Under the pieces are notes generated by a model. It was not told where the DNA came from, searched no databases, and saw only the letters and a list, made by a program, of their open reading frames with translations. Shown here in pieces: positions 11,476 through 64,000 of a DNA stretch of 64,000 nucleotides. The stretch covers positions 62,001 through 126,000 of the forward strand of contig JBAMJV010005497.1 of the NCBI GenBank assembly GCA_037951105.1, written 5' to 3'. Every line of letters starts with the position of its first letter. The first letter of the stretch is position 1. Source of the DNA: Echinarachnius parma. Taxonomy: Eukaryota; Echinodermata; Echinoidea; Clypeasteroida; Echinarachniidae. The translations under genes and the position numbers were made by a program.

Positions 11476-11929
11476 AATTATAGTAGCTATTCATAGCCTT
11501 AATTGTAATAAAACATATTCAAAAGCAAAAATGCAAATTGATGTAAAAATTTTGTTAGAAACTTAACATGAAATCTCCTTCATAGTAGATCTTTTTCTTC
11601 AAATGTTGTGTCTTTCGCTCATTCTTCTATCTCTCTTTCTCCTATCTGTCATTTATTTCTTACTCTTACTCTGTCTTGTCTGAGATGGGGATAGCCATTA
11701 ACATTCCAGGTGACCCACATATTAATGTTCACCTATGGTTGCCAGGAAAATAGACAGGGCCAACCCATTCAAGAGAGGAGGGTTGCAACATTCTCCCACA
11801 AGGGGGGCAACCAGTGACATAAGTTAAAATAGTGTCGTGTTTTCTTTATGATGTTTCCCCTTCAGAAAGGGTGACAGTAAAGGAGGAGGGCAAGTATTTC
11901 CACAGGGAAAGTTAATAGCCCCCTCACCC

Positions 11930-14867: not shown

Positions 14868-14935
14868 GGGATCCAAATTGCGTCCATCTGTCTTCCGTCC
14901 GTCGGTCCGTCCGTGACGCTTACAAAAATTTGAAT

Positions 14936-15525
14936 AACTTTCCAACCCTGCTTCTGTTTGTAACCAAACTTGATTGGTAAATGCCCTACATTGGCCTCCA
15001 TTATATTCTGGGGTCAAAGGTCACATAAGTAGGTCAAAGGTCAAATGAGGGTCAATGTGAAGTTTTACCTGCAAGAGTCTATTAGGGTTGATAACTTTCC
15101 AACCCTGCATCTGTTTGTAACCAAACTTGATTGGTAGATGCCCTACATGGGCCTCCATGATATTCTGGGGTCAAAGGTCACATAAATAGGTCAAAGGTCA
15201 AATGAGGGTCAATGTGAAATTTTACCTGCAAGAGTCTATTAGGGTTGATAACTTTCCAACCCTGCATCTGTTTGTAAACAAACTTGATTGGTAGATGCCC
15301 TACATTGGCCTCCATGATATTCTGGGGTCAAAGGTCACATAAGTAAGTCAAAGGTCAAATGAGGGTCAATGTGAAATTTTACCTGCAAGAGTCTATTAGG
15401 GTTGATAACTTTCCAACCCTGCATCTGTTTGTAACCAAACTTGATTGGTAGATGCCCTTCATTGGCCTCCATGATATTCTGGGGTCAAATGTCACATAAG
15501 TAGGTGAAAGGTCAAGTGCGTGCAA
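14936..15525 (+). repeat. Four-copy tandem array, period exactly 157 bp
   Basis: AACTTTCCAACCCTGC occurs at 14936, 15093, 15250 and 15407. Each unit ends in repeated AGGTCAAAGGTCA-like words. Units are highly similar, implying recent expansion. Confidence 0.9.
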
Positions 15526-45642: not shown

Positions 45643-46253
45643 TTAAAGGGAACCACCACCCAAAAATTATATTCTTATATATGAAATGTAATAGTTTATG
45701 AGTCCATTCCACCAAAAGGTTCAGACAAATATGTTTCCAGGCAAATCTTCTTTCGTATCCGACATCTACACAAGTCCAGAATGTTAGATATTTGGCCATG
45801 ACTTTGCACATCGAAGGGCCTTCTCATTTCTAATTCTTATATATGAAATGTAATAGTTTATGAGTCCATTCCACCAAAAGGTTCAGACAAATATGTTTCC
45901 AGGCAAATCTTCTTTCGTATCCGACATCTACACAAGTCCAGAATGTTAGATATTTGGCCATGACTTTGCACATCGAAGGGCCTTCTCATTTCCAGGCAAA
46001 TGATATTATAATTTAAAAACTCATGACCATACAAAAGTATGTGTTAATGGGTCTGTAGAAGAAGACTATCTATAATCTAGGACTGACTTTCTTCTGTGAT
46101 TCTATTGGCGCACTCGCACGCGTTAGTTAATGGCATTGTTTATGAATTACACAACCTTTTGCGTAGTATTGGACATCAAATCAATATCGAACAACGATAC
46201 CAAAACATATAAGCCTGTGTTGTTATTTGCGTTTGCGTGGTGGTACCTTTTAA
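45643..46253. mobile_element. TTAA-flanked MITE, TTAAAGGGAACCACCACC family (family 4)
   Basis: Ends TTAAAGGGAACCACCACCC and GTGGTGGTACCTTTTAA are inverted repeats, TTAA at both edges. It contains a virtually perfect internal tandem duplication of 162 bp (45671-45832 and 45833-45994). A partial relative is at 13440-13663. Confidence 0.8.
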
Positions 46254-46605
46254 GCCTAAATTTATGGTGCTAAGAGGTTATACATCTACTAGATCAGATT
46301 AGGCAGAACTCTCGTTTTATATAGATCTGCTAGGAGTTTTCCTTCCTTATGTTAAAAATAAAGGTTCATGCTCGTTTCTCTTCCAAATTAAATGAACCTA
46401 CATCCTTTCAAAACTGCTCGTTCCAATAAGATTATAATCAAAATGTTATCACAGCAAAAACAATTTTTTCTTTGTCCTCACAATAAAAATGTTCTGTTCT
46501 CTCTGTTGGTGCGTTTCCGTCATGGCTTTCACAATGACACGCAACCTTTGGCAATGTTCTGCAACTTCTACAAGGCTGAATAAGGCTGACTAACCAAAGA
46601 TGTCT
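46254..46605 (+). other. Intron sequence upstream of the coding exon
   Basis: AT-rich, no supported feature. Confidence 0.4.
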
Positions 46606-46998
46606 TACATTTCTCTGGACTAATTTTGCATATTTACCCTCCTCTCTTCACAACTAGTTATCCTTTGCAGGATTTGTGTCCGACACCTGTCCTATATCTA
46701 AGAGTGGGATTTATGCAAATATATTTTGTTTTGTTTTTCTCAAAATTAAACTCACATCAAAACATATTTCCAATGATTCAAAGACTACTTTTGTAAATAG
46801 CCCCTTTTCTCTCTTTACAGTGGTCATTCGGAGGAGGCTTATTGGAGACTCATGGTCAGCATTTCAACATGTCAAAGCGGTAGGGACAAATATCATCGTC
46901 TCACAAATAGAAGTTAATCACAGCAACAAACATTTGTTTTCTTTTGTCTCGATCAGAAGCTAATTTTGTAAATTTCCCCTCTTCTCTTCTCTTTGCAG
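46606..46998 (+). repeat. Three tandem copies of the coding-exon 3' splice region
   Basis: Three blocks of the form CTAATTTTG(T/C)AAATT...CCCTC/TTCTCTT...CAG end at acceptors 46670, 46820 and 46998 (spacings 150 and 178 bp). The third leads into the coding exon. The first has an extra CACAACTAGTTATCC between its pyrimidine tract and TTTGCAG. The second copy extends through exon sequence to a start codon. Confidence 0.75.
46821..46890 (+). pseudogene. Degenerate duplicate of the coding-exon start (MSKR then stop)
   Basis: After the acceptor TCTCTTTACAG the sequence TGGTCATTCGGAGGAGGCTT parallels the real exon start TGGGCATTCGTAGAAGGAGC. It then reaches ATGTCAAAGCGGTAG (46869-46883), encoding M-S-K-R-stop, where the real exon has ATGTCTAAGCGTCAAGG. 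It is therefore a broken duplicate of the first coding codons. If its acceptor is used, it would add a four-codon upstream frame to the mRNA whose peptide copies the first four residues of the protein. Confidence 0.7.
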
Positions 46999-47046
46999 TG
47001 GGCATTCGTAGAAGGAGCTAGGTGCGTGTGATACTCACTCACCATC
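46999..47046 (+). other. 5' untranslated part of the coding exon
   Basis: 48 nt between the acceptor CTTCTCTTTGCAG (ending 46998) and the ATG at 47047. It contains TGA in the reading frame region upstream of the ATG (GTGTGATACTC), supporting the chosen start. The context ATCATGT is acceptable for initiation. Confidence 0.65.
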
Positions 47047-48208
47047 ATGTCTAAGCGTCAAGGTGGTGGAGGCAAGGAGGCCTCCTCCTCCCACATCAAA
47101 CGCCCCTGTGTGCAGGTCCCGCATCCGATCCATGTCTACACGCAGGAGCCCGCACACGGGTACTCCATGAACCAGAATGAGGCGGAACAGGCGGAACGGG
47201 CGGAACGAGCCGAACGAGCTGAACGTGCTGAACGAGCGGAACGAGCTGAACGTGCTGAACGAGCTGAACGTGCAGAGAGGGCGGAAAACAGTACGCCGCA
47301 CAGCAGCAGTGGGTCTATGGACGTACGTCAGTGCAGCCCCGATCAGGTGACGGCATCGCATGGCATGGAGAGACACAGTCTGGAGCGGCAAGGATCGCAT
47401 GGTAATGAAAGACCAGGATCTCGTGGTTTGGAGAGACAAGGGTCTTATGGGATGGAGAGACAGCAGTGTTCGCCCAGACAGAACTCTCCTCCACAGGGCT
47501 CACCCCTCCAGGCATCTCCTCTCCGAGTGTCACCCCCTCTCGTCTCTCCCCCGCAGGCCTCGCCGCCTCGCATGTCGCCATCATCGCATAGTTCGCCGAC
47601 CCTCGTGTCGACTACGCATTCGTCCCCAACGCGCGTGTCCCCGTCTCATATGTCCCCATCGCATATTTCTCCAACGTCACACATATCACCATCTCGCGTA
47701 TCGCCACCTTGCAGTTCACCGTCGCCTGTTTCATCAAACTGTGAAGCGTGTTACTATCATCACCATCACCACCACAACCACCATCACCATCAACAACAAC
47801 AACAACAACAGCATCCGCCACACCACCACCACTACAACTATGTCAGCTACAGTGCTGCATACTCTCCGCCACTGGACTCTAACGTTAACATTAATAACAA
47901 GGAGAGGTGTGACTCGCACCACCACGAGCTGCTGCCCGTGGCCCCAAAAGTGGCGCCCAAGTCTTCCGGTGCAGTCCCACCGCCGCCGCGATCCCACGCT
48001 TCCCTCCCGTCCTGGATCAAGTCGGAGGACAATCGGCCCACGTGGGCCAAGCGCCCCCAGCCGGTCAAGGAGGTCGTGAGTGTGGAGACGACGTGCAAGT
48101 CACGTGGAGAAAAGGAACTACACGAGAATAGTGAGAGGAGTAAGCCGGAGATGGAGGCTGCAAATCCGGTCACAAAATGGCCTAGTGCACCCAAATGGGT
48201 CGAACTGG
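47047..48208 (+). CDS. Main coding exon of an unrecognised low-complexity, probably nuclear or cytoplasmic regulatory protein
   Basis: Encodes 387 residues plus one base of the next codon. Visible parts: a basic N-terminus (MSKRQGGGGK, KRPCVQVPHPIHVY, about residues 1-35); an AEQ-(AER)10-AEN tripeptide array (residues 46-81), probably a charged helix; repeats of about 10 residues around LERQGSHG (about 104-140); a long SP-rich segment with some 20 Ser-Pro pairs (about 139-230), candidate proline-directed kinase sites; a His/Asn/Gln tract (about 237-262); then a less biased, tryptophan-marked end with LPSWIK, RPTWAKRPQP and KWPSAPKWVELE (about 318-388), which looks most likely to be conserved. 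No signal peptide or membrane segment. Start chosen because it is the first ATG after a strong acceptor; exon ends at the donor CTGG|GTGAGTATG. Read-through past the donor would stop at 48259-48261. Family not recognised; function unknown. Confidence 0.85.
47182..47289 (+). repeat. Coding 9-bp repeat (AER array, 12 units)
   Basis: Twelve in-frame units of GC(G/C/T)GAACG(A/T/G) encode AEQ, ten AER and AEN. Synonymous third-base variants alternate, and GCTGAACGTGCTGAACGA-type higher-order units suggest growth by slippage or unequal exchange. Confidence 0.9.
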
Positions 48209-48345
48209 GTGAGTATGTCCGCCAATTTTGTCATTACTTGTTCGAAATTAACGTATTATAGATGATTTGGGTCAGTACTTGTCAGTACTTGTTCGAAATT
48301 AATGTATTGTAGATGATTTGGGTGAGTATGTCAGACTGCAATTTT
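48209..48345 (+). repeat. Three tandem copies of the coding-exon 5' splice region
   Basis: GGGTGAGTATGTC at the real donor (48207) recurs as GGGTCAGTACTTGTC (48269) and exactly as GGGTGAGTATGTC (48320), with TACTTGTTCGAAATTAA and TAGATGATTTGGGT shared between. The downstream donor at 48322 is consensus-quality but lies after an in-frame stop (48259-48261), so its use would end the protein early. Confidence 0.8.
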
Positions 48346-51270
48346 ATTTTGGTAGTTGTTATGGTAGATGATTTAATTTAAATAGTCTTTACATGCAATT
48401 TCTTCATTGACCATGCAACCTGAAGCAAAAAGTTCTTTCAAAGCTCTTTTTCTGATAAATGCATTTACAATTAAATCAATATAGGGACAATTAAAATGTT
48501 AAAATTTATGATTTTACTTGCCCAAACGGGCCAGTACACACAAATGTTAGCGTGGAGGCTTGTGTACATGTACTTCAGCAAGACACATTTTCCTCAGAGC
48601 AACAGATTAAATGCTTTTCTCATGACAGAGTTTTAGATTGTAATGCCATTGACAATATATGTAGCTGTGTAAACAATAGTCAATGGTTCAGTGTTGCAGA
48701 CTCTGAAGCCGATCAGTATCGTTTCTAAGTGGGAGGGGTTAGACTAGTATCCTTGAATTACAGTTGCCCTTATTGAATTTTGCATTACAGATATATTATC
48801 ACTTTATAGAACACTTGTTTTTATCCATATTTTCATCCAATATCCTCCCAGCCATTCGCTACAGGCAACAAAACGGAAGGAAATAGGCCTACATTGTGCG
48901 AGGCTTGATTTAATTTCCTCTGAAAAAAAATCTGCGCCCTGCTCCAGAAACACAGTGCTGGCCTCGTAGAGTGGGCGGAAGTTTGACATCCCGCATAAAC
49001 TGCTGCCATATTGTCACGCGTCTTGTCGCTAGCCCCTCTGCGTAATCAACCAACATATTCCGTGTGGGTCTACTAGACGCCCGCCGCGCATGGCGATATA
49101 TATTCGAAGTGGGACAGTCAATTGAGTGGCTTGAAAGGAAAGGGGGAAAAAAAGGTCGGTCATAATAAAGCAAAGTCAAAGCCTTCTAAAAGTAAAAGAA
49201 ATATAACAGCTGCCCTTTTTGTGCGACAGTGTCCTGGGGTGTTGGCCTTAGTCCTCATTCTTTATGAAGACAGAAATGCACGTAGGAAGTCATCTCGAGG
49301 CTAGGCTGACTTCAAGGCTCCCGGTGTTTTTGCATTCTTGAAAAGGTCTTTTACACTCTTAACAGTACATAGATCTTTAAAGGCTGACCTATTTATGTCC
49401 CCAAAGTTGAGCCTTGCATCAAACCCTTGAGAGGAGAATGCTTTCTTCATTTAGAATGTCACTTTAAATACACTGGACATCAAGCAAAAAACGATTCCAA
49501 AATCCAAAGTACCTGAATTTGGATCTGTTTGATTTGGGTAGACTAGTTGGAAGCATGTAGCTATGTAGAGTTTGTAGAAAGATAACTTCATAAAACTGGT
49601 GAGTATATATACCTTAATCCTAGTCCACTCTTGAAGGCTTACATGGTTTCCTGGATAAAGGTCAGATTTTTAAAACCCATTCCTTTGAGATTCTGAAATA
49701 TCCCCATAAATTTGTACATATAGCCCACCAGGTTTCCGACATGTACAGAGAATCTTCATTCACTAATTAATGCTGATGCTTACTTTAAAAAAGGTCGCTG
49801 CACAAAAAAGATTTGAGACACAATGAACTCAAAATGTGAATGCCCAACTAATGAAGTCCACATGTCTTTCATGATGAGATTTTGTTATTGCTTGTACATC
49901 TGGGAATGGCATGATAGCTCGCACATTGGCGCATAGCATAAGTTGAGTGCAAAAAAGATGTAAAATACAACAATACCTGTCATGTTAACGACCTTTTCTT
50001 GCCACATGAATGAAATGTAGAGTCTGAAACAAATTATACCCTCGTTTATATCCCATACATACATGACAGTACAGTTCATGAACGGTATACATCAGCCATT
50101 TTTTGGGTAAAAGTTTTAACTTTGGCCTTGTGTCCTGTGAAGTGGGCCAAACTTATTTCCTTCGCTGTATGTGACGAGCTTAAAAAAAGGGCTTGTGACT
50201 TGTCGCTTTCATAATGAAATAAAAGGATTTTCATACCTGCTGCTTTTTTCTGACTGTTATTGCACATAGGGATTTGGTATGCATGGCTTGTTACCAATTT
50301 GTTGGTCTACTTTTTAAAATATGATTCCCCGTGGAGTGTTTCGGTGGGAGATTAAGGGCTAAGTGAAACGTCACGTCCTACTTAATAACTAGAGTGCATA
50401 GCCCACATTTGCTGGACCTGGCTTTGATAATCCATTGAGTATCAAACCCCAGATATACTGGGCTAGGTTCTATAAGCATAATTTGTATCATTAAATTCTG
50501 TTGAAGTGAATTTCATTTTTGGTATAATGCATTCTTCGTAGATCCCAGCTAGCTAAAGATATTTTGGGGGTGAGTCTTAAATGGGTTAAACCAATTTAGG
50601 ACGTTTTTATTTATTTGGATCTGGTATAGTGCATTTTCCATTTTCCCAAGCCCAGGTGTAATCAGGAATAATCTAGAATGGGTCAAATAACTTGTTGAGA
50701 AGTGAGCTTGATATAGCATGAGCTAGGGTCTGTGGAAACAGGGAACAAAATTTACATTTATTTTGGGGGGACTACTTTTCAAGCTTGCCTGCATGGAAAT
50801 GGCATTCTTAACCCGTTCAGGACTGGTCCTGAAAATATTCGGGCTTTGGTCTATGGAGAATACATATTGTAGCAAAATCAGTCCGTCCTCAACGGGATAG
50901 TTTTGTCATAACTTGTCATTCTGTTGCCCTAAAAAAAAAGCTAGCTCTATTAGTTGAAATTGATTTCCAACTTGCAATAAAATTCTGTATTAAAAGGACA
51001 GTTGGGTTTTAATAATCATTAAAGGTTTTCTCCCCAAAATACTTAGACTGTGGTCTATGCTATGGAGAATGCATGATATAAACCAAAAGCAAATAATCCT
51101 CAACGGGATAATTACGAAGTAGAGATCAACATTTTATGTATGGAAATGTCTGGTCTAGCTGTACATGTTTTCCAATGCAATATAATAAATCAATTACCGT
51201 GCATCAGCAAAATGCACGTCTGCATTACATCCAAAGAAATCCACACGTACACCGTTCACCATTGTACATT
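48346..51270 (+). other. Intron 2, part, no gene seen
   Basis: Mostly AT-rich. Contains a CpG-richer patch at 48925-49110 (GACATCCCGCATAAACTGCT, CCCGCCGCGCATGGCG), a type B-like unit near 49676-49740, and a cluster of type A units between 50440 and 51110, the best at 50808-50900. Confidence 0.5.
50808..50900 (+). mobile_element. Ultra-short TTAACC element (type A)
   Basis: TTAACCCGTTCAGGACTGG to GTCCGTCCTCAACGGGATAG with GGTCTATGGAGAATACAT inside. Neighbouring related units lie near 50508-50587, 50587-50690 and 51020-51115. Confidence 0.55.
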
Positions 51271-51274
51271 TAAT

Positions 51275-51470
51275 GGTAAATAATGTTTTGTTGCGGTTCA
51301 TTATGAAAATTGGAATTGTCCTGGAGAGGTTAAGACCCAGAACTTATTCCTTCCAAAGAATTCTATCGATTTACACCCACTGTTCACCTTTTGTAAATAA
51401 TGTTTTGTTGCGGTTCATCATGAAAATGGAATTGTCCTGAAGAGGTTAAGACCCAGAACTTATTTCTTTG
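51275..51470 (+). repeat. Two-copy repeat, about 116-bp spacing
   Basis: AATAATGTTTTGTTGCGGTT followed by GAATTGTCCTG(G/A)AGAGG and AGACCCAGAACTTATT appear twice. Confidence 0.85.
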
Positions 51471-51738
51471 AGCAGTTCTCTGGAAATGAATCTAGTGAAT
51501 ACATGTCTACTAGAGCATGTTACATTTATTGACACACATGATCAAAAGCAGTCACGTAATCACGTAATATGTTTCCACATATTTAATAAATACACAAATG
51601 GATTTATCCATGCTTGGACTGTTGCCAAATTCTCCTGGCGTTCCACTGCCAGGTCTAAGTCCAGTTCAAAAAGGGGGCAACATTTCAGTTCCAGAGTTTT
51701 TTTTTCTTTTTCTGATTCAACTATTTTGTATTTCTCAA

Positions 51739-51987
51739 GCATCATCATCATCACCATTATCACCATCATCATCACCATCACCATCACCCTCACCAGGTTT
51801 CAATTTAAGAAATGCCTGGTCTAACAAAATCCCTGATAAGTGAAATATACTTCATAGTAATTGTGATTATATGATAGTGATGATTATGATGACGATGACA
51901 ATGATGTCAATGATGACAATGATGACGATGACAATTATGTCAATGATGACAATGATGACGATGACGATGATGACAATGATGATAATG
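51739..51987. repeat. CAT/CAC microsatellite facing a GATGACAAT minisatellite
   Basis: 51739-51797 is (CAT/CAC)n; 51877-51987 is an array of GATGACAATGATGACGATG-type units. The two are partly complementary and could pair. Confidence 0.85.
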
Positions 51988-52032
51988 GTTTCACGTACCA
52001 AGTAATTTTGTGTCAAAATGACATGTACATTT

Positions 52033-52465
52033 GTGACCTTACACCACAAAACGACCGTTATGCCGCCGTGGTAGTTTGTCTGTTATTAGCTGATATAGCC
52101 AAATTTTGTTCAAAATATGAAATTCAGGATTTTGGTATTTCCTGAATGAGGGTATCATAATCTACCTTTTGTGAAATTTTGAGCGTCAGAAATCATGTTT
52201 AAATATAATTTTTAATCAAATAAATATGATCAGATTACAGTGCTTGAATGGACGCCGATCTTTGAAAAATCCCGTTTTCTCCCTAACTTTAAAACTGATT
52301 CAGCCATGTTCCAAATCTTGGCTGCTCATTTTGAGATGGTTCGCTTTGTCCAAATATGACAAAATATATACCATTTTAAAGGTATTGACTTCTACTTTAC
52401 TGTCATGTAAAAATTAGCACAATCATTTTCCCCGACTTATTGGTCGTTTTGTGGTGTGAGGTCAC
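52033..52465. mobile_element. Non-autonomous DNA transposon, 4-bp target duplication (copy 2)
   Basis: Ends GTGACCTTACACCACAAAAC and GTTTTGTGGTGTGAGGTCAC; ATTT at 52029-52032 and 52466-52469. Homologous along its length to 20-518 but lacking the 80-bp insertion found there, so it supplies the empty-site comparison. Confidence 0.8.
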
Positions 52466-52469
52466 ATTT

Positions 52470-53120
52470 GTACTTTGTACATTATCTGGGTACAATATTT
52501 CACGCTTGAAATGATAACCTTCAAATTCTATGTGAATCTAAATTATACGTTTCTTTGGTTTACCAAGTAGAATCTGGAAAATTAAAAGAACGAAGGAGGG
52601 GTACCATCAATGCAACACCACAAGGGTAAATTTTCAGCATGACGGGATTCCATTATTAGGGTGTTAAATGGACTTTCTTTGCGCCGCCGTGACCTGACCC
52701 AGATATAAATGAAGGTTCTATTTGTCGTCTGCTCATTCTTATTATTCTTGCACAGCGGGGAAAGAAAGAATGGAGCAGGAGAGAAGTTCCTTTCTATAAA
52801 AAGGTGCGAAAAAGATAAACAAGGAAGGGCCGAGAAGAGCGTATGAAGTGGAAAGATTGGGGACAGCCAAGTGTGAGACAACATTGAAATGTGTTTTCAT
52901 TTTGGCAGAGAGAAATGGGAGACCATATAAATTGATTTGTGATTTTTGTCTAGATATAAAAGTGAGAAGGAAAACAGTATTAAGAGAGAGAGAGAGGGAG
53001 AGTGAGGGGGAGGGGGAGATCGAGGGAATGGTAGAGAGAATTCATGATGTTCCCTTCTATTATTGTTATGAAAGTTGAGAAAAAAAGTAATACAAACACT
53101 AAACGATAACTAGAGAATTG
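52470..53120. other. Intron 2, part, no gene seen
   Basis: Unique sequence with a GA-rich stretch at 52985-53040. TTTGCGCCGCCGTGACCTGA near 52680 is GC-rich and might be regulatory. Confidence 0.35.
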
Positions 53121-53200
53121 TTAACCCCTTCATAACTGCTTGAATTCTGATGTATCACATTCCCACGAATGTGCGGACCAGTCCTGCATGGATGGGTTAA
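53121..53200 (+). mobile_element. Ultra-short TTAACC element (type A)
   Basis: TTAACCCCTTCATAACTGC to CCTGCATGGATGGGTTAA; 80 bp with TTAA at each edge. Confidence 0.55.
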
Positions 53201-53424
53201 GAATATGAGGTACCACATACATGACCCAGAGGGAGTGAAGTGTAAAGATGGAAGAGCCTCAAATATAGCGCCCCGTTTTATAATGAGCACATTTTATGAG
53301 ATTATGTTCAATCTGGAGTTGCACTTAACCTCTTTTCTCGGCTAATATCGGCACATTTAAAAGCGTGAGTGCATGTTCAAAGCGAGAAGTAGCAAGAAAA
53401 TGTTGAGAGATAGTTACAAATGTA

Positions 53425-53565
53425 ATAGCGAGGCTGCCCTGCTTCTTATCTCATTTAAACTCGTACATGCACATGTAACGAGGCAGCCTACCTTGCTTTT
53501 ATATCTTGTTTGAACGCGTACTTGTACGTGTACAGCGAGGCAGCCTTGCTTTTTATCTCGATTTC
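53425..53565 (+). repeat. Three-copy repeat of about 55-60 bp
   Basis: GCGAGGCTGCCCTGCTTCTT, ACGAGGCAGCCTACCTTGCT and GCGAGGCAGCCTTGCTTTTT start successive units, each with TACATG/TACGTG words. Confidence 0.75.
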
Positions 53566-53740
53566 AGACACGCATGGAAATAAAAGACCGCCTGACCTGG
53601 ATCGTTGCCTATTTATGGAGGATGAAAGACCCACATTTTCTGTACCATGACACAAATACCATGACTGTTACGGCTGGGTAATTAAATTTTAACTGATGAG
53701 TCTGAAATGAAAATGGGTCTGTCTCGTTTGTACGAAGTGG
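53566..53740. promoter_or_regulatory. Candidate noncoding regulatory patch
   Basis: Non-repetitive, with CCGCCTGACCTGGATCGTTG, CACATTTTCTGTACCATGAC and GGGTAATTAAATTTTAACTG. Composition-based inference. Confidence 0.25.
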
Positions 53741-54419
53741 GAACATGACTGTAAAAAAAAAAAAAAAAAGACACATTATGGAAATTGCAACAATTGAAAG
53801 AAGAAAAAAACTAATTAAATTTAATAATGGGCACGCTATTCATTGAAAACACAATACATATTGTATGCATGTATCTCATGTAATGGTATTCCTTTACCAG
53901 AAGGAAAGTTTGGAAGGTAATGCAACTGGTGCACTATGATTAAATTTCTTACTTTATTGAGATAGTACTTATTAAATTTCATATTTTATTGGAACAGTAT
54001 CCTTCAGTAGAATGTAGGTCATAATGATAATGGTTCAGTTGTTTTCAATTTCCATTTCATTTTTAAAGTCAGCTTAATTTGTATACATGTAAAATTATTT
54101 TTTGAAACTAGGACTTCTTTCAAAAAGACATTTTTTTCTTCATATCTTCAGCTTCAAAAGATCTTTCTTATGTTTTATATTTGAACATTTGTGGGCAGAT
54201 CCCAAATGTTTAGTTTTCATACATGGCATGAAATTTAGGAGGATTATTTAAAAATTCATTTATGAAGTAAAAATGGAGACAAGTGAGGTCAGTAAACATA
54301 AAACTGCATCAAACTTTTAGCAGTGTCGCATTTGACAGAGACAAAGGCACCATTCAGTAATCTCATTCCAGTCACTTTTTAAGCAAACTTTTAATCCAAT
54401 ATTTCAATTTTAAAAAAAA
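53741..54419. other. Intron 2, AT-rich, no gene seen
   Basis: Contains a poly-A run (53752-53769) and T-runs. Nothing else recognised. Confidence 0.4.
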
Positions 54420-54930
54420 GGTCTTTTGAAAGGTCTAGCAAAGTTAATTTCAAGTCGTGTCGTGACGTGGGGTCATCCAACATTCTTCGCGCCCTGCGGC
54501 ATTGCTCTCACATCGCGAGCCGATGAAAACGGGTACCGCAGACTCTCGGGGCTAAATTCCCGCAAAGCACTAATTGGACTAGCTTCCCTAATTCCAGACT
54601 GCATGAAGCAGCATTGTTTTTTTCTCACTATCTGACTCAGGGCTTCACTTGAACTCGCTTTTTCATGCAGCGACTGTTTTAGTGGCAGTGGATCCACCCC
54701 GGCCATACATTAGGTTAAATCACTTAAACCCGGATCATAATTTCTCACAGAAAGGGTGCCAACAGATCAGATTTAACCCTGATTCCAGCCGCAATAATCG
54801 CATTATGCTCTCATCCCCCGGAATGATTGTCTTTATTGCTGCGTCAGTAATCACGATTCATGTATGAAAATGCAGCTTAGCAATAATGAGATTTAAAAAC
54901 ACCCTGGAAGTTCTTCCGGCAAAGGACTGT
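54420..54930. promoter_or_regulatory. Strongest candidate conserved noncoding element
   Basis: About 500 bp of non-repetitive, GC-richer sequence embedded in AT-rich intron, 1.1 kb upstream of the small exon. It holds many homeodomain-like or bZIP-like words: CACTAATTGGACTAGC, CCCTAATTCCAGACTGC, AATAATCGCATTATGC, GTCAGTAATCACGATTCATG, TCGTGACGTGGGGTC. Short open frames on both strands overlap, none protein-like. A C-run closes it at 54939-54949. Function is inferred. Confidence 0.4.
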
Positions 54931-55495
54931 TAACTCACCCCCCCCCCCCTTCTCCTGATTATGCAGTTACAAACACACCCTCGCACGCATGAGTGTTGTT
55001 TTTGTTTATAATGTCCACATGCTTGACATGTTTTCATTGTTTTTAGTTATTATCATGATTAGATTAAAGAGATAACGAGAGATGGGCTAAAAGAGGAGAT
55101 GGGGGAGAGAACATAATTAATGAAAGATATCTTTAGGCCTTTTTCCTGAGTGGTACAGTTAGTTTTCTTTTATCTTTTGTTGTTTATTTTTCATTGGAAT
55201 GAGTTTGAAAAAGGTTGTCACTTTGGTTCATGGTATGATCAGGAATGAGCTGTAAATGATTTAAGAATTTTGTTTTTTTTATTATCGTGGTGTTATTATG
55301 ATGGTCTGCAGAAATTAAATTTTAAGCTGCTCAAACGTAATGAGACCGTATACCAATATATAGTATAACCTTTTTTATAAAGAGAAAGGTCGAGGATATC
55401 TTGGTTTGGGCCTATCGAATGGTGTGATCAGTAAACTGCTCAAATGTAATATGATTATGCCTCTTCCTTTTGAAAATCATGGACATTAAATCCGT

Positions 55496-55579
55496 TCAGG
55501 ACGGATCGATTTTGCTACAACATGTATTCTCCGTAGACCCAAGCCCGAATATTTTTGGGACCAGTCCTGAACTGGTTAA
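55496..55579 (+). mobile_element. Ultra-short TTAA element (type A)
   Basis: TTAAATCCGTTCAGGACGG to CCTGAACTGGTTAA, 84 bp, with CCGTAGACCCAAGCCCGAAT centrally. Confidence 0.6.
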
Positions 55580-55674
55580 TTATTCATCCATTCTTATGTA
55601 TAGATAAAGGCTGATGACAGTTTATTTTGTATTTAATCTGCATTCTCATCTTTTTTGTTTGTATATATCTTTAG

Positions 55675-55790
55675 AACATGGTTGCAAGGACATCACACCT
55701 GCATGGTAGGGCCAGTATAAAGCTGGCTGCCCAAGACCCTCCTCCCTGGTCGTTGCATTTAGCGTCAAGTTCAAAGAACAGATAATATTT
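55675..55790 (+). pseudogene. Degenerate copy 1 of the small coding exon
   Basis: It follows TATATATCTTTAG and aligns to the intact exon at 56061 (AACATGGTTGCAAGGACATC versus AACAAGTTTGCAAGGCCATA). In the inherited frame it hits TAG within twelve codons and has no donor at the expected end, so it cannot serve as a coding exon. Confidence 0.7.
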
Positions 55791-55890
55791 GAGGATAATC
55801 AGTATATCAATAGTATCAGTCTATTAATTTCAATCAAAATCAGTGGAATTATCAGTGAAATTATTTCTTGTTCTTTTTCTTTCTGTTCCG

Positions 55891-55995
55891 AACAAGTTTA
55901 TAATGCAATCACGTCAGGGTATGATAGGGCCAGTAAACTGCTCAACCACAGATCACCCTCTCTGGATGCTCAAAGAAAGGAACATCATTGAAGAT
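55891..55995 (+). pseudogene. Degenerate copy 2 of the small coding exon
   Basis: Retains DRASKLLNHRSPSLDA with almost no nucleotide change relative to the intact exon, but the acceptor CAG is CCG here, about ten bases (GCATTGGGCT) after GATGCT are missing, which shifts the frame to a TGA, and the donor is lost. It is a recent but dead duplicate. Confidence 0.8.
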
Positions 55996-56060
55996 AATCA
56001 ATATGACATGGAATTGACTTATCAATAACATTATTTTTCATTCTTTTTTTTCCTCTTCAG

Positions 56061-56179
56061 AACAAGTTTGCAAGGCCATAACATCTGGACACGATAGGGC
56101 TAGTAAACTGCTCAACCACAGGTCACCGTCTCTGGATGCTGCATTGGGCTCAAAGAAAGGAACACCAGACTTCCAAATG
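56061..56179 (+). CDS. Second coding exon of the gene
   Basis: Bounded by the acceptor TCCTCTTCAG (ending 56060) and the donor AAATG|GTGAGTTTC (intron from 56180). The 47047 exon ends with the first base of a codon; this exon supplies two bases to complete Glu and then 39 full codons: QVCKAITSGHDRASKLLN, then HRSPSLDAALGSKKGTPDFQ and M. The matching phase, open frame and two flanking degenerate copies support it. RSPSLD resembles a basophilic kinase or 14-3-3-type site. No stop is present, so the gene continues downstream. Family not recognised. Confidence 0.75.
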
Positions 56180-56352
56180 GTGAGTTTCAAAATCATTTTT
56201 TAATTACTTTGTTAAACGAGTCTAGTGGATGTTGAATGTTGTGCGTGTGTGATTCTATATAATTTATGCTTGTATTTGAATGTTTTTTTTTTAAATCTGA
56301 ATGGATGCTTCATTAGCCTCAAAGATCTGTTGTGTGTGTTATCATTATCTAT

Positions 56353-62689: not shown

Positions 62690-64000
62690 GCGTAAGGGGG
62701 AAAACAAGTATCTAGGAAAATAGATGTATGTCATTAACATCAGATGTCAAAAGCAAGATTTAAAGGGGTAAGGGAGGGATGGATTGTGGTCACAGAGGGA
62801 AATGTTACACAGTGAATAGAGGGTCGGTGAGGGTGAAGGTATGTAACAAATGTATTATACCAACATTAAACGATCCTCAATGGGTTAAAGGGGAGGCCTA
62901 AATGAGGAACAAACATCTAGGTAAACAAATGAATGTCATTAACATTGGATGTCACGAACTAAATTTAAAATGGGGAGGGAAGGAGGGGAAGGGAGATTGT
63001 GGTTACAAAGGGACATATTTCACTGGTGACCAGAGGGGTCTGTGAGTGCTAGGATACATACATGTATCCTATTAATAACAAAATTAAACAATCCCAAAAG
63101 GGTTAACGAGGTGGCCAAAATGGGAGACAAGCATCTAGGTAAACAAATGAATATCATTAACATTGGATGTCACAAACTAAATTTAAAATGGGGAGGGAGG
63201 GAGGGGGATGGAGATTGTGGTTATGAAGGGAAATATTTCACTGGTGACTGGATGGTCTGCATATGAGGGCAATGATACATACATGTATCCTATTAATAAC
63301 AAAATTAAACAATCCCAAAAGGGTTAACGAGGTGGCCTAAATGGGAGACAAGCATCTAGGTAAACGAATGAATGTCATTAACATTGGATGTTATGAACTA
63401 AATTTAAAAGGGAGGGAAGGAGGGGGATTGTGGTCACAGAGGCAAATATTACACAGTGACTAGAGGGTCTGCATATGAGGGCAATGATACATACATGTAT
63501 CCTATTAATAACAAAATTAAACAATCCCAAAAGGGTTAAAGAGGTGACCTTGATGGGAAACAAGCATCTAGGTAAACAAATGAATGTCATTAACATTGGA
63601 TGTTATGAACTAAATTTAAAAGGGGGAGGGAAGGAGGGGGATTGTGGTCACAGAAGCAAATAATACTCTGGTGACTAGTGACTAGTGAGGATCTGTGAGG
63701 GCAAATATCACAAATGGAATTGCCCTCAATGGGTTAAAGACGAACCCTAAAAAGGAAAACGAGCATAGATCTAGGAAAACAAATGAATTTCATTAAAATT
63801 GGATGTCATATAAGCAAGATATTAAAGGGGGAGGGACAGATAGCTGGTGGTTGCAAAGGGAAATATTACACAGGTGACTACAGGGTCTTTAGGCCGAGGA
63901 CCGGATATATGTATGTATTATACCAAAACTAAACAATCCTCAATGGGTTAAGAAGAAGGAGGCCTAAAAAGGAAAACAAGCATAGATCTAGGAAAACAAA
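62690..64000 (+). repeat. Tandem array of about 200-220-bp units running off the window
   Basis: GGGTTAA marks unit ends near 62883, 63101, 63322, 63534, 63732 and 63946 (spacings 218, 221, 212, 198, 214). Each unit has ACAAGCATCTAGGTAAACAA, CATTAACATTGGATGT, a GGGAGGGAGG purine stretch and AACAATCCCAAAAGGGTTAA. The unit end resembles a type A TTAACC element end. The short frames within are by-products of the repeat. Confidence 0.9.

Follow-up and report, generated by a model that had tools for sequence, protein, structure and literature searches.

The window analysed here, a stretch of 64,000 nucleotides, looks eukaryotic and carries an intron-bearing, animal-type gene on its plus strand. 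Exons 2 and 3 of this gene join in frame and together specify 427 residues of low complexity (Table 1). By a simple splice matrix the acceptor and the donor of exon 3 are both strong, and the matrices behind all site scores given below are generic ones, not trained on the host species. A Pfam scan of exon 2 named no family, its single match lying far below the cut-off (E 1.4), and a scan of 10 other open reading frames from the 59 listed likewise gave no name, with one match below the cut-off (E 0.083). Searching the PDB sequences with exons 2 and 3 returned six matches (E 0.0024 to 0.56), mostly to a His-rich stretch and uninformative. A tRNA search under bacterial settings found none, and Rfam at gathering scores found no family. 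When AG-GT pairs on both strands were scored as possible further exons, 12 candidates resulted, with exon 3 and part of exon 2 among them. Exon 2 also contains two internal tandem repeats, each with a unit length divisible by three: one of 9 bp, present about 10 times (the AER repeats, 47182-47270), and one of 24 bp, present about 3.4 times (47381-47462).

Sequences from the edges of exons 2 and 3 recur close by in three sets, which we call the acceptor set (A1, A2, A3), the donor set (D1, D2, D3) and the exon-3 set (E1, E2, E3). An initial annotation of this DNA had placed each of the gene's splice-boundary regions, three in all, in tandem triplicate; that wording goes too far, since the sets cover the edges of two exons and the donor of exon 3 has no clear copy.

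Table 1. Exons and duplicated exon-edge units of the gene, with splice scores from generic matrices.
Feature	Coordinates	Strand	Remarks
A1, weak and diverged putative relic of the acceptor/5'UTR unit	46595..46720	+	homologous AG 46656-46657 (CTAG, score 2.7)
A2, duplicate acceptor unit	46752..46917	+	exon side from 46821, acceptor score 11.2; start codon 46869
A3, acceptor unit presumably in use	46918..47083	+	AG 46997-46998, score 11.1; 5'UTR; start codon 47047
Exon 2, coding part	47047..48208	+	open reading frame, 387 codons + 1 nt
D1, donor presumably in use, and next intron bases	48206..48267	+	GT 48209, score 9.4
First member of 51-bp tandem pair	48228..48277	+	donor-like D2 at 48271, score 5.5
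Second member of 51-bp pair (48279-48328) and tail	48279..48374	+	intact donor D3 at 48322, score 9.4
E1, most diverged putative exon-3 relic	55652..55787	+	in-frame stop; acceptor -0.1; counterpart of exon-3 donor absent
E2, putative exon-3 relic	55846..55987	+	AG of acceptor missing; 10 nt deleted; GT absent between 55934 and 56057
E3, acceptor tract and probable working exon 3	56016..56179	+	acceptor 12.0, donor 10.3
Exon 3 (probable working copy)	56061-56179	+	40 codons counting last base of exon 2

Within the acceptor set, A2 and A3 are clearly homologous: their strict alignment score of 59 is reached by none of 300 dinucleotide shuffles, and nhmmer recovers them with E values of 1.7e-9 and 2.9e-8. 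The match spans the tract, the AG, the 5'UTR and the start codon, and the unit extends into the coding start of exon 2. The frame of A2 reads MSKR-stop, ending after four codons, and a donor-like site follows at 46880 (score 7.8); one of the 12 AG-GT candidates is the 59-nt interval 46821-46879 that lies within A2 (acceptor 11.2, donor 7.8). A1 is weaker. Its match to A3 exceeds all 300 shuffles, and that to A2 exceeds all 300 under lax scoring and is reached by 7 of 300 under strict scoring; blastn of A1 against A3 gives E values of 4e-4 to 5e-4, and nhmmer gives just 0.065-0.74 for A1. The position of the start codon is ATA in this copy. The initial annotation had placed the three acceptors at 46670, 46820 and 46998, and the first of these needs correcting, as the AG at 46670 sits opposite exon sequence in the three-way alignment and the counterpart of the acceptor is the CTAG at 46656-46657. 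On these alignments A1, A2 and A3 can fairly, though with reservation, be taken as three copies.

The donor, too, had been placed in three copies (48209, 48271 and 48322). What holds is the pair formed by D2 and D3, a clean 51-bp tandem duplication with 46 of 50 bases identical; D1 belongs to it through a short match only, in which 14 of 14 bases are common to D1 and D3 and the score beats all 300 shuffles. Extended with a gapped tail to 48374, the D1-D3 match scores 19.1, whereas none of 2000 mononucleotide shuffles scores above 16.0. The segment 48319-48374 then aligns to 48206-48268, weakly in its tail part, and the tail to 48374 alone is weak (D3-D4, 0 of 300 shuffles strict and 11 of 300 lax; D2-D4, 20 and 32 of 300). 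The donor unit starts at the end of exon 2, and the set would best be read as a nested, two-step event.

In the exon-3 set, the alignments confirm three homologous copies. The E2-E3 pair has a strict score of 136 and the E1-E3 pair one of 48, neither reached in 300 dinucleotide shuffles, and the E1-E2 score is reached by 4 of 300 shuffles under strict scoring and by none of 300 under lax; nhmmer with E3 as query over the whole window returns E2 at E 6.6e-23 and E1 at 1.5e-9. The initial annotation, which put the copies at 55675, 55891 and 56061, was right as to their number, but not in calling them copies of the whole exon: the match to E3 stops at 56164 in the case of E1 and at 56167 in that of E2, before the last 12 coding nucleotides and the donor are reached. 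Directly past the end of the match, the 3' flanks of E1 and E2 are alike at 15 of 17 bases (1 of 1000 shuffles strict, 6 of 1000 lax), and this common 17-base flank is absent from the end of E3, pointing to a break within the exon. After E1 we found nothing corresponding to the exon-3 end and donor (lax score reached by 384 of 1000 shuffles), nor was an E2-type 3' flank found upstream of E1 (672 of 1000, lax). A candidate continuation, 56177-56213 against 56008-56049, is reached by 7 of 1000 shuffles under lax and 26 of 1000 under strict scoring and is suggestive at most; because 56008-56049 may be a decayed counterpart, the break within the exon is probable rather than proven. On the simplest reading, a probable one, the duplicated unit broke off inside exon 3, so that its final 12 coding bases and its donor are found solely beside E3, and E1 and E2 were probably never whole exons, although E2 would once have been one if 56008-56049 truly corresponds to the missing end and its donor flank. 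A segment at 55421-55443, possibly a fourth copy of the exon, exceeds all 300 strict shuffles against both E2 and E3 (lax, 3 and 6 of 300), with an nhmmer E value of 5.9, and is unproven as a copy.

The copies also differ in how they have changed. E2 is frameshifted, having lost 10 bases that E1 and E3 retain; it contains donor-like sites scoring 5.7, 4.1, 2.0 and -2.9, and the exon part of E1 contains one at 55706 with a score of 7.3. Using E1, the most diverged copy, as outgroup, we polarised the differences between E2 and E3, counting 13 of 14; the fourteenth, at 56165, lies past the strings used and is nonsynonymous in the exon-3 frame. Five of the 13 changes arose on E3 and all five are synonymous, as against an expected synonymous fraction of 0.29 for random change at kappa 4, which marks E3 as a constrained exon. 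Seven arose on E2 (four synonymous, three nonsynonymous), and the one remaining difference, unpolarised, is synonymous. The E2-derived changes fit relaxed change, and the share of them at third positions (5 of 7), a weak hint of former constraint on E2, leaves room for an earlier period of constraint. Since the changes on E3 are all synonymous, while E2 has three nonsynonymous ones and has lost its AG and 10 nucleotides, we read E3 as the working exon and E1 and E2 as relics. In each of the three sets it is the copy adjoining the exon body that can still code. The observation that each set has a single such member was well made: A2 has its MSKR-stop frame, E1 an in-frame stop and E2 a frameshift, and use of D3 would add an in-frame stop.

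Two kinds of continued use of the spare copies have to be weighed against this picture of relics. The broader one is that selection has retained the copies, as alternative splice sites or as mutually exclusive exons, for tissue-specific isoforms; selection for tissue-specific alternative splicing had been raised as a possible cause in the initial annotation. The acceptor of A2 (11.2) and the donor D3 (9.4) do match the sites presumed to be in use (11.1 and 9.4), A2 is among only 5 of 3615 plus-strand AGs scoring 11 or more, the 59-nt AG-GT candidate exists within it, and the third-position excess on E2 points in the same direction. Selection of this kind is nevertheless improbable, as no donor follows the spare exon-3 copies and their changes are of the relic type: E2 is without its AG, has the 10-nt deletion and offers no GT after 55933 until 56058; E1 combines an in-frame stop with a weak acceptor; and three of the seven E2-derived changes are nonsynonymous. 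Splicing at A2 is predicted to lengthen the 5'UTR and to add two upstream open reading frames, of 21 and 4 codons, and splicing at D3 would bring an in-frame premature stop. The narrower possibility makes use of these same consequences, A2 and D3 being live alternative sites that tune output, the former by adding an upstream open reading frame (the MSKR-stop copy of the gene's start) and the latter by a premature stop; judged from the sequence, this is unlikely too, though somewhat less so.

How unusual it is to find duplications at these exon edges depends on the background, which is high. We compared 1270 segments of 100 bases each with the next 400 bases, at a score cut-off of 22 or more, and 156 of the 1270 passed; three block-shuffled windows gave 26 of 3810. 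The passing segments merge into 40 loci of small tandem duplication, 10 within 46.5-56.2 kb and 30 outside, an upper figure in that some are of low complexity (for example at 11851 and 17201), that shuffles yield about 0.7% of segments, and that neighbouring loci of one set are counted separately, the three boundary sets making up 5 of the 40. With 10 loci in 9.7 kb against 30 in 54.3 kb, the stretch 46.5-56.2 kb has roughly double the locus density of the remainder, 5 of the 10 being the boundary sets. Duplications cover 20.7% of the bases of the window; when a margin of 25 bases is allowed, the share of positions is 24.7%. Counted uniformly, 15 of the 40 loci have three or more copies, two of the 15 being the exon-3 set; on the same count, exon 3 has three copies, the acceptor two and the donor two. 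The window further contains a 212-bp array of about 4.6 copies with 82% matches (62702-63678), of which a further copy runs to the window end, and a 157-bp array of 3.7 copies with 96% matches (14934-15515) that has GGTCAAAGGTCA-like motifs.

Against this background, a single cause shared by the three sets, as proposed in the initial annotation, finds little to sustain it. In the form considered here, transcribed splice regions would be mutational hotspots of tandem duplication through pyrimidine tracts, R-loops or splicing-factor binding. The three sites do all have a duplication within 25 bases; when they are rotated together round the window, 934 of 64,000 rotations (1.5%) give this result, and cubing the single-site figures at three thresholds gives 1.5, 1.1 and 0.8%, so that there is a mild excess, in a pattern picked post hoc. 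Duplications are scarcer in the intron between the sites than elsewhere in the window (13.6% of intron positions have one within 25 bases, compared with 24.8% of positions outside 46-56.3 kb), so some local excess at exon edges is possible. However, like events occur throughout the window, the donor of exon 3 is without a clear copy, and the divergences of the copies are unequal; moreover, a simulation under assumed rates suggests that constraint on one of the copies prolongs the time for which exon-edge duplications can be recognised, relative to neutral ones, by a factor of 1.33 (edge) to 1.53 (whole unit constrained), and this longer visibility would bring the frequency expected by chance to a few percent. 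We therefore regard a common hotspot as very unlikely. The initial annotation had itself named an equal density of small duplications at other exons and at random intron positions as the result that would speak against it, and this is largely, though not wholly, what the 40 loci amount to.

The divergences themselves, expressed as Jukes-Cantor distances that were taken under lax gap costs (so that identity is overstated) and between copies of which some are constrained, run from 0.08 for D2-D3 through 0.20 for E2-E3, 0.30 for A2-A3, 0.34 for A1-A3 and 0.38 for E1-E3 to 0.49 for E1-E2. Such a spread argues for separate events and against a single one. Divergence bears also on whether the copies are real. 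Unresolved haplotypes in polymorphic genomes can yield tandem copies, and an artefact of assembly or haplotype merging might be suspected on that general ground, yet the boundary copies differ at 8-36% of aligned bases and have decayed in distinct ways, which exceeds normal haplotype difference and makes this origin very remote. An artefact of that type might instead fit a 162-bp unit that occurs twice with 100% identity at 45671-45992, roughly 1 kb 5' of the acceptor set, and that is either very recent or an assembly effect.

We propose that independent local tandem duplications fell across exon edges, and that in each case the copy joined to the exon is in use and the others are decaying, a reading to which we give a probability of roughly 0.83. 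The part of the initial annotation that derived the copies from local tandem duplication agrees with it and is supported by the homologies, which stand above the shuffles. Several small tandem duplications, with units of about 50-200 bp, would have occurred at different times in a duplication-rich region, perhaps through slippage or unequal repair. Where a unit spans the edge of an exon, just the copy still attached to the exon body could code, and the coding copy would be the last one in both acceptor-side units and the first in the donor unit. Selection would keep the attached copy, and the spares would drift as intronic relics or cryptic splice sites.

So read, the phenomenon is an ordinary one, and the odds that two of the spare splice sites remain in use are small. 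It would show splice signals and a start codon being copied and then decaying in a duplication-rich region, and adjacency to the exon body deciding which copy survives. It is also a caution for gene prediction, in which E1, E2 or A2 could be called exons; and if A2 or D3 is used, the locus would be an example of duplication generating upstream open reading frames or premature-stop isoforms.

Among known systems, small intragenic duplications in flies come close. According to PMC2891723, which cites other work, 15 fly lines yielded 1901 duplications, mostly tandem, with a median of 367 nt, 624 of them containing some exonic sequence. The likeness lies in duplications that are local, mostly tandem, tens to hundreds of bases long and in part exonic, and head-to-tail copies above chance are what we find (A2/A3, D2/D3 and E1/E2/E3, with A1 and D1 weaker); the fly duplications are described there as population polymorphisms, whereas the copies here are diverged and decayed and come from one window. 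Mutually exclusive tandem exons share with our exon-3 set the adjoining of homologous exon copies in one intron (PMC9013439, PMC5740500). PMC9013439 covers tandem exon duplication generally, and PMC5740500 asks of mutually exclusive exons a similar length, the same frame and no stops, with GT-AG favoured. The spare copies here differ: there is not an acceptor and a donor for each, and E1 and E2 do not keep the same frame free of stops, being without a donor and having a stop or a frameshift. As for alternative splice sites, an intact consensus is present at A2 (11.2) and D3 (9.4), by generic matrices not trained on the host. Finally, intron gain by a duplicated proto-splice site, as outlined in PMC2891723, resembles the present case in that splice signals are copied, and differs from it in its outcome: here no new intron appears, and existing introns carry relic copies.
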